Shown here: positions 2,993-13,060 of the stretch, piece after piece
How positions within the stretch are numbered: the stretch's first letter is position 1
How the letters are laid out: each line of letters begins with the position of its first letter
Source of the DNA: Anaerolineae bacterium
GTDB taxonomy: Bacteria; Chloroflexota; Anaerolineae; Fen-1058
DNA: 41,024 bases
Direction of reading: 5' to 3'
NCBI GenBank assembly: GCA_003154115.1
Contig: PMCF01000305.1
Coordinates: forward strand, 222-41,245
Program-made: the position numbers and the translations under genes
Notes under the pieces: model-generated
What the model saw: only the letters and a program-made list of their open reading frames with translations
What the model was told of the DNA's origin: nothing
The model's database searches: none

Positions 2993-4039
2993 TTATTCCA
3001 CGCTGATACCGGAACCGTCTGCTACTTCCCCAATGACGCGCGCGAATAAGCCATCACTTTCGGCTTGCGCGAGGAACGATCGGGCCTGGGCAGGATCGAG
3101 CGCGATCAGCAGGCCGCCCGAGGTTTCCGGATCGAACAAGATCGCCCGGTGGGCCGCCGTTAGCCGATCGGCGAAGCGCACGTGCGGCAGCACATGCTCC
3201 CGGTTACGATGGAGTCCACCGGGGAAGATCTCTTGTTCGGCGTATTCGATCGCGCCGGGCAGCAGCGGAATGTCGGCGAAGCGCAGCCGGAACATCACAC
3301 CACCTGCGTTCGTCATCTCCAGGCCGTGCCCCAAAATGCCATAGCCCGTGATGTCGGTGCAAGCGTGGGCTGCAAAGCGCTGCGCCAAATGCGAAGCATG
3401 CTGGTTGAGCGTGCTCATGCTTTTCACCGCGGCTGCCACGTGCGCCGGATCAGCCTGGCCGCGTTTGAGGGCTGTTGTGATCAGTCCCACACCCAGCGGC
3501 TTTGTCAAGACCAATAGATCGCCCGGCTGCGCGCCGCCTTTCGTGAGAATGTGCGCCGGATGCACGAGGCCCGTCACGGCCAGCCCATACTTCGGCTCTT
3601 TGTCGCTGACCGTATGCCCGCCCGTGATGATGGCGCCCGCCTCACGCACTTTCTCCGCGCCGCCGCGCAATATCTCGGACAAGATCGCGCGATCCAGATC
3701 ATCGGGGAAGGCCGCCAGATTCAACGCAAACAGCACCTCGCCGCCCATGGCATACACATCGCTCAGCGCATTGGCGGCCGCAATCGATCCGAACGTGTAT
3801 GGATCATCCACGACGGGGGGGAAGAAATCGATCGTGCTGACGATGGCCTGCTCGTCGTTCAATTGATAAACGGCAGCGTCATCCGGCCCGTCAAGTCCAA
3901 CCAGAACCTGCGGGAAGTTGCGCGAATCGAAAATATTTTTGAGCGGACGCAGCACCTGCGCCAGATCGGTCGGCCCGATTTTACTGGCTCAACCGGCGCA
4001 TGAGGCCAGCGCCGTCAGGCGAATTTCTTCGCGGGTCAT
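2993..4039 (-). CDS. selD: Selenide, water dikinase, itself a selenoprotein (UGA = Sec17)
   Basis: SelD makes selenophosphate from selenide and ATP, the selenium donor for selenocysteine and selenouridine. An ordinary reading gives a 320-residue protein starting at 3955 that lacks the catalytic N-terminus. Upstream in the same frame, an ATG at 4039 with AAGGAG encodes MTREEIRLTALASCAG, then TGA (3989-3991), then ASKIGPTDLAQ. This is the conserved SelD active-site loop with Sec at residue 17 and Lys at residue 20, the positions of Cys17 and Lys20 in E. coli SelD. The full product is 348 residues, a normal length. Later AIRS-family motifs are GGHTVSDKEP and DPETSGG. A SECIS-like hairpin follows the UGA. 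The gene has its own promoter, divergent from the FHA gene. The host should therefore encode SelA, SelB and tRNA-Sec. Confidence 0.93.
3960..3988 (-). promoter_or_regulatory. Bacterial SECIS-like hairpin after the selD UGA
   Basis: Immediately after the UGA the transcript can fold as GCCAG (3988-3984), a TAAA bulge, ATCGG, the loop GCCGA (3974-3970), CCGAT and CTGGC (3964-3960). This gives ten base pairs with a 5-base apical loop beginning with G, as expected for a bacterial SECIS bound by SelB. The loop starts 14 bases after the UGA, slightly closer than typical. Confidence 0.75.
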
Positions 4040-4068
4040 GGCACTCCTTTCCAGAGGATTCTGAGGCG

Positions 4069-4097
4069 AGTATACTCGATCCAGGATTGCTTGTCGA
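4069..4097 (-). promoter_or_regulatory. selD promoter
   Basis: On the minus strand TCGACA (4097-4092) and TATACT (4074-4069) are separated by 17 bases, a good sigma70-type promoter. It leaves a leader of about 25 bases before the selD ATG. It overlaps the divergent FHA promoter. Confidence 0.6.
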
Positions 4098-12351: not shown

Positions 12352-12974
12352 TCCTCCGGCGTGTCGAGGTCCTTCAGCACGCTGTCCGTCTCCACCACTA
12401 CATAGCGAATCTGTGCTTCGTGCGCTCGAATGAAGTCGCGCAACGTGGTCGTCTCCGACAGAGCCAGCACCTCCGGCCACAACGCTCGATCGATCAGAAT
12501 CGGATGGCCGCGCTTCAGCTGATAGGATGGGATGATGATCGCCTGAGGCTGTTGGGCATCGATCCCACCACGCCGTTTCCTGTGCGAAGCACAGGCGGCG
12601 CGCTTGGCGAAAGATGGGGACTGTTCCGTCACGCGCTGGATCACAGCGCGCTGGATGCGCGGCTGATCGCCCAGCACGATCAGCGCGGCGGTTGCTTCGG
12701 CCGGTAAGGCGCGCAATCCCACTTGAATGGACACCAGCATATCGGCCTGAGCATAAGCGGAATTGAAGACACAGCGCACCGGATAAGAACTGAGCAGCGC
12801 CGCAATCTGATCGGCCTGGTGGCCGGTCACGACGACTAGGTCATGTACCTGCACACAGGCGGCCACTTCCGTCACGACGGTTTCCAGCACCGTCGACGCG
12901 GCCAAAGGCAACAGCATTTTGTTGCAGCCCATGCGGTGTGATTGTCCTGCGGCGAGAATGACAGCGCCAATCAT
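12300..12974 (-). CDS. MocA/MobA-like nucleotidyltransferase with in-frame repeat insertion
   Basis: The 224-residue product begins MIGAVILAAGQSHRMGCNKM, the NTP-binding signature of the molybdopterin cytidylyl/guanylyltransferase group. Later it has LGDQP (101-105) and RGHPIL (155-160), typical of MocA, which attaches CMP to molybdopterin for xanthine-dehydrogenase-type enzymes. Between them, about residues 119-140 (QSPSFAKRAACASHRKRRGG) come from a 55-bp repeat and have no counterpart in the family. The frame is open upstream through three 27-bp repeats, but ATG 12974 gives the conserved N-terminus, so that start was chosen. The ribosome site is the GGGG of the last repeat unit. No molybdoenzyme gene is in the window. 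The Lys after MGCN is conserved. Confidence 0.88.
   Translation of the reverse strand: MIGAVILAAGQSHRMGCNKMLLPLAASTVLETVVTEVAACVQVHDLVVVTGHQADQIAALLSSYPVRCVFNSAYAQADMLVSIQVGLRALPAEATAALIVLGDQPRIQRAVIQRVTEQSPSFAKRAACASHRKRRGGIDAQQPQAIIIPSYQLKRGHPILIDRALWPEVLALSETTTLRDFIRAHEAQIRYVVVETDSVLKDLDTPEDYAEMWHRRERQTHDDR
12560..12627. repeat. Long-form repeat copy inside the mocA-like gene
   Basis: The segment begins CGATCCCACC, carries a hairpin CCTGTGC GAA GCACAGG flanked by CGCCG/CGGCG, and ends AAAGATGGGGACTGTTCC. Bases 12560-12614 are identical over 55 bases to the reverse complement of 15693-15747. The outer parts match the 27-bp unit found at 12980-13060, so this is the unit with a hairpin inserted in it. 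Confidence 0.8.
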
Positions 12975-12979
12975 GAAAT

Positions 12980-13060
12980 AATCCCCGTCTTTGGGTGGGA
13001 CGAAACAGTCCCCGTCTTTGGGTGGGATGAGATAATCCCCGTCTGTTGGTGGGATCGACT
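12980..13060. repeat. Three tandem 27-bp repeat units
   Basis: Units at 12980-13006, 13007-13033 and 13034-13060 share the pattern AATCCCCGTCTTTGGGTGGG followed by seven more variable bases. Read toward mocA on the minus strand each unit is nine codons giving IPPKDGDYF-like peptides, all open. The array ends directly at the mocA-like ATG, where the last unit supplies GGGGATTATTTCATG. Further related copies lie at 12560-12627, 15681-15747 and 20212-20264. Confidence 0.85.

Follow-up and report, generated by a model that had tools for sequence, protein, structure and literature searches.

An in-frame UGA codon in selD of an Anaerolineae bacterium is very likely read as selenocysteine

Does the UGA triplet near the 5′ end of selD in this Anaerolineae genome interrupt the gene, or does it specify selenocysteine (Sec)? 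The window analyzed here, a stretch of 41,024 nucleotides, has on its minus strand a frame for SelD (selenide, water dikinase; also selenophosphate synthetase) that remains open over 348 codons if one TGA is read as Sec. The initial annotation, made from the DNA letters, proposed that selD is a selenoprotein gene and that the host has a working Sec system. We evaluated this proposal using profile and structure matches, related genomes, RNA folding, and the gene content of the host assembly.

The selD frame and its catalytic position

The features discussed below are as follows.

2993–4039, minus strand: selD, full frame with UGA read as Sec, 348 aa
2993–3955, minus strand: truncated ORF expected from a standard gene caller, GTG start at 3955, 320 aa
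3960–3988, minus strand: putative bSECIS stem-loop, GCCAG/CUGGC and AUCGG/CCGAU with a UAAA bulge and the loop GCCGA
3989–3991, minus strand: UGA codon 17, Sec at the catalytic Cys position, aligned with Cys17 of Escherichia coli SelD
4044–4049, minus strand: ribosome-binding site AAGGAG, just upstream of the ATG at 4039
4069–4097, minus strand: sigma-70-like promoter TCGACA-17-TATACT, a consensus match at 10 of 12 positions

With TGA translated as U, the product begins MTREEIRLTALASCAGUASKIGPTDL and contains this single in-frame TGA. The protein matches the curated equivalog model TIGR00476 with 389 bits (E = 1.5e-116; cut-off 125), and the match is full-length, residues 7–318 covering positions 1–310 of the 311 in the model. 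E. coli SelD (Protein Data Bank entry 3u0o; E = 7.7e-69) and the next bacterial-type match, entry 2yye, are both homologous to it over most of its length.

Aligned with E. coli SelD, the segment SCAGUASKI lies opposite SHGAGCGCKI, such that U17-A-S-K20 faces C17-G-C-K20. The TGA of codon 17 therefore occupies the catalytic Cys/Sec position, as the initial annotation had it, and the conserved Lys of SelD proteins is found as K20. The two proteins differ in that E. coli SelD has Cys17-Gly-Cys19, whereas the protein encoded here would have Sec17-Ala-Ser19 and lacks the second cysteine. Compared with the Sec-containing bacterial SelD proteins of TIGR00476, it shares family, length, Sec at the position of Cys17, and a downstream stem-loop, and nothing of substance is different.

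The ORF list, in which TGA is a stop, opens the gene at the GTG at 3955 and drops the first 28 residues of SelD, the catalytic site among them, which is the truncation that had been predicted. The upstream ATG was said to have its own ribosome site and promoter; AAGGAG and the sigma-70-like sequence are indeed found there, the latter being a candidate promoter on the basis of its consensus match.

Conservation of the UGA codon among relatives

The TGA could in principle be a pseudogene mutation or a sequencing or assembly error from TGC, in which case the gene would be dead or would really encode Cys; the host assembly is fragmented, which lends this idea some plausibility. However, the UGA is kept in the two nearest full-length relatives, which show 87% and 83% protein identity, and independent assemblies from the genus and the family have the same TGA at the same codon. 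The nearest named relative at selD is a Thermoflexales metagenome-assembled genome (83% identity), which is in line with a host in the class Anaerolineae of Chloroflexota. Of the 80 related loci scored, 68 have TGA at codon 17 and 12 have TGC or TGT (Cys), in a count that includes the window's own locus (L011) and two loci, L020 and L013, from the same contig. We consider an error or a dead gene to be refuted by this conservation within a frame that is otherwise intact, and give it next to no credence. As is typical of a selenoprotein gene, selD has its UGA where homologues have Cys, and the codon is kept in relatives.

It is similarly hard to believe that a changed code or a suppressor makes the UGA specify a different residue (Trp or Cys), or that translation begins at the downstream GTG. 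The 320-aa ORF from this GTG does exist, but the residues upstream of the GTG make up the conserved catalytic motif of SelD. A different residue at codon 17 is opposed by the complete Sec system encoded by the host (see below), and nothing else that we observed suggests a changed code.

Among 298 Anaerolineae-class genomes drawn, 251 have SelD. Of the approximately 150 SelD matches listed from these 298 genomes, nearly all have a single TGA and about seven are free of stops, three of the latter in long frames of 743–770 aa. These long frames, from three genomes of the class (L137, L138, and L139), carry UGA-less SelD domains and are perhaps oxidoreductase fusions. Judging from the codon, SelD normally carries Sec across the whole class of the host, and hence the initial annotation gave its occurrence here too much weight. 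SelD is among the two most widespread bacterial selenoproteins (PMC1794560) and has been ranked as the second most expansive selenoprotein family (PMC13188914). Weaker SelD-like matches in the host (25–29% identity over part of the length) were also seen, none of which passes a search with the SelD model at 1e-40.

Structure downstream of the UGA codon

Directly 3′ of the UGA, the sequence GCCAG-UAAA-AUCGG-GCCGA-CCGAU-CUGGC is predicted to fold into a stem-loop of −17.9 kcal/mol. The initial annotation described a 10-bp hairpin with a 5-base loop. The 10 pairs and the 5-nt loop stand, but a 5′-side bulge of 4 nt splits the pairs into two stems of 5 bp each, so that there is no continuous helix.

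Because the stretch is coding, stability was compared with that of synonymous recodings of the same peptide, drawn using the codon usage of selD itself. The stem-loop is more stable than codon choice would give, with z = −2.5 over 39 nt (1.2% of recodings equally stable) and z = −3.6 over 30 nt (0.05% equally stable). Dinucleotide shuffles set it apart only moderately (z = −1.8; 7 of 200 shuffles equally good). The same bias is seen across relatives: relative to synonymous recodings, the downstream structure has a mean z of −1.08 at UGA loci (n = 66) and of +0.12 at Cys loci (n = 12), with selD of the window kept outside the group and scored separately. The Mann–Whitney p value of 0.003 is optimistic because related sequences are not independent, although the contrast is still in the expected direction.

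A published bSECIS model requires a loop of 3–9 nt, a stem of 4–16 bp, a G in the first two loop positions, a minimum free energy of at most −7.5 kcal/mol, and a spacing of 16–37 nt between UGA and loop (PMC13188914). The loop size, the 10 pairs, the G as first loop base, and the predicted energy all fit this model, whereas the apical loop starts 14 nt past the UGA, just under the range given, and the second loop base is C and not the usual G or U (PMC13188914).

These deviations bear on whether selD, while being a Sec gene, relies on some other structure or register than this stem-loop to guide SelB. Apart from the short spacing, such a reading draws on the next genus (L013), in which the register differs and the loop of the best apical stem lies approximately 16 nt past the UGA, and on the different fold that is preferred once sequence upstream of the UGA is included. 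On the other hand, the stem-loop is the dominant predicted fold of the 47 nt starting from the UGA (frequency 0.77), and its stability exceeds that expected from codon choice, so that we regard another guiding structure as unlikely. From one genus to another the hairpin changes register, and both of its arms are under codon constraint. One could also speculate, with considerable doubt, that SelB of this Chloroflexota lineage accepts bSECIS elements with a loop unusually near the UGA (14 nt) and a register that changes between genera, the published spacing rule being too narrow. If so, scans built on that rule would miss some Chloroflexota selenoproteins.

Selenocysteine machinery of the host

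The absence of selA, selB, and selC would have spoken against a Sec reading of selD. All three are present in the host assembly, each over its curated cut-off: selA with 558.7 bits, selB with 338.7 bits for the joined frame, and tRNA-Sec (selC) with 65.8 bits and a UCA anticodon, called as tRNA-SeC (tca) by ARAGORN. The tRNA-Sec with its UCA anticodon is conserved in relatives. The C-terminal part of host SelB contains winged-helix domains (Pfam SelB-wing_2 and wing_3); in known SelB proteins, these domains bind the bSECIS. Hence, a Sec system appears to be encoded as proposed, with genes for SelA, SelB, tRNA-Sec, and SelD.

The assembly comprises 7.7 Mb in 460 contigs, with 96% completeness and an estimated contamination of 8.5%, and the window lies on contig C13. 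Since the sel genes are on different contigs of such an assembly, we infer their joint ownership. Contamination as their source is unlikely: a same-genus genome has a SelB 84% identical over the first 432 residues as well as a selC region that matches, the selC locus of relatives shows 80–91% DNA identity, and the tetranucleotide profiles of the sel contigs agree with that of the window (correlation 0.96–0.97).

Other UGA-containing genes

A search of the host for the AhpC-TSA family, which bears on the suggestion that further UGA-containing genes be sought, yielded two genes with an in-frame TGA, both at a UxxC motif. One, on contig C349, encodes a SelL-related redox protein with FGUPMC (124.8 bits; cut-off 120). 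Two other genomes keep its TGA, one of the same genus (75% identity) and one from elsewhere in the family (60%). The other, on contig C53, encodes a redox protein with FTUPYC. The structure test singles out neither gene (z = +0.2 and −0.4), so their assignment as Sec genes relies on position and frame, with conservation added in one case. Given these two genes, SelD is very probably not the sole selenoprotein of the host.

Formate dehydrogenase is the commonest companion selenoprotein. In the host, an N-terminal piece (contig C445) loses its frame after approximately 100 profile positions, and a C-terminal piece (contig C309) starts at the first base of its contig; the host copies are broken across contigs, and the Sec/Cys site is left unassembled. 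In a same-genus genome (G001), the Sec site of two formate dehydrogenases (L117 and L136; CARLUHAPTV) is a TGA, and a formate dehydrogenase of the same family has Cys.

Proposed decoding and its implications

The selD frame, the UGA position, the structure bias, the remaining Sec machinery, and the other UGA genes occur together in one assembly. With a high degree of confidence, we infer that selD of the window encodes a Sec-containing selenophosphate synthetase, in agreement with the initial annotation and based on frame, codon position, structure bias, sel genes, and UGA conservation. SelB with Sec-tRNA(Sec) would decode UGA codon 17 as Sec, guided by the stem-loop just 3′ of the codon. The Sec would stand in for the catalytic cysteine, which deals with selenide ahead of the ATP-dependent step that forms selenophosphate. 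Selenophosphate from SelD would feed SelA and, through it, the production of Sec-tRNA(Sec); a SelD that itself contains Sec would therefore depend on its own product.

SelD as a Sec enzyme and the truncation of such genes by gene callers have long been described, and automated annotation often truncates or misses selenoprotein genes, as noted in a review (PMC13188914). The present result supports Sec use by the host and provides the correct start of selD; automatic annotation would remove 28 residues and with them the active site. Apart from a corrected annotation of this assembly, it alters little, Sec-containing SelD being the norm in the class.

Neighboring genes and a dispersed repeat

A tmRNA (ssrA) gene at 2548–2935 on the plus strand is convergent with selD and encodes the tag peptide ANRTSYAAMPLAA. 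It is followed by a strong terminator-like hairpin of 17 pairs at 2939–2975.

In host selB (L005, contig C130), codons ~432–454 are an in-frame insertion that adds about 22 residues between the C-terminal domains; the same-genus SelB is without it. This insertion is one copy of a dispersed repeat, to which the genome has about a dozen matches, full or partial. Within the window, three tandem 27-bp units at 12973–13054, inside a predicted ORF, share the GGGGATTATTTCAT core.
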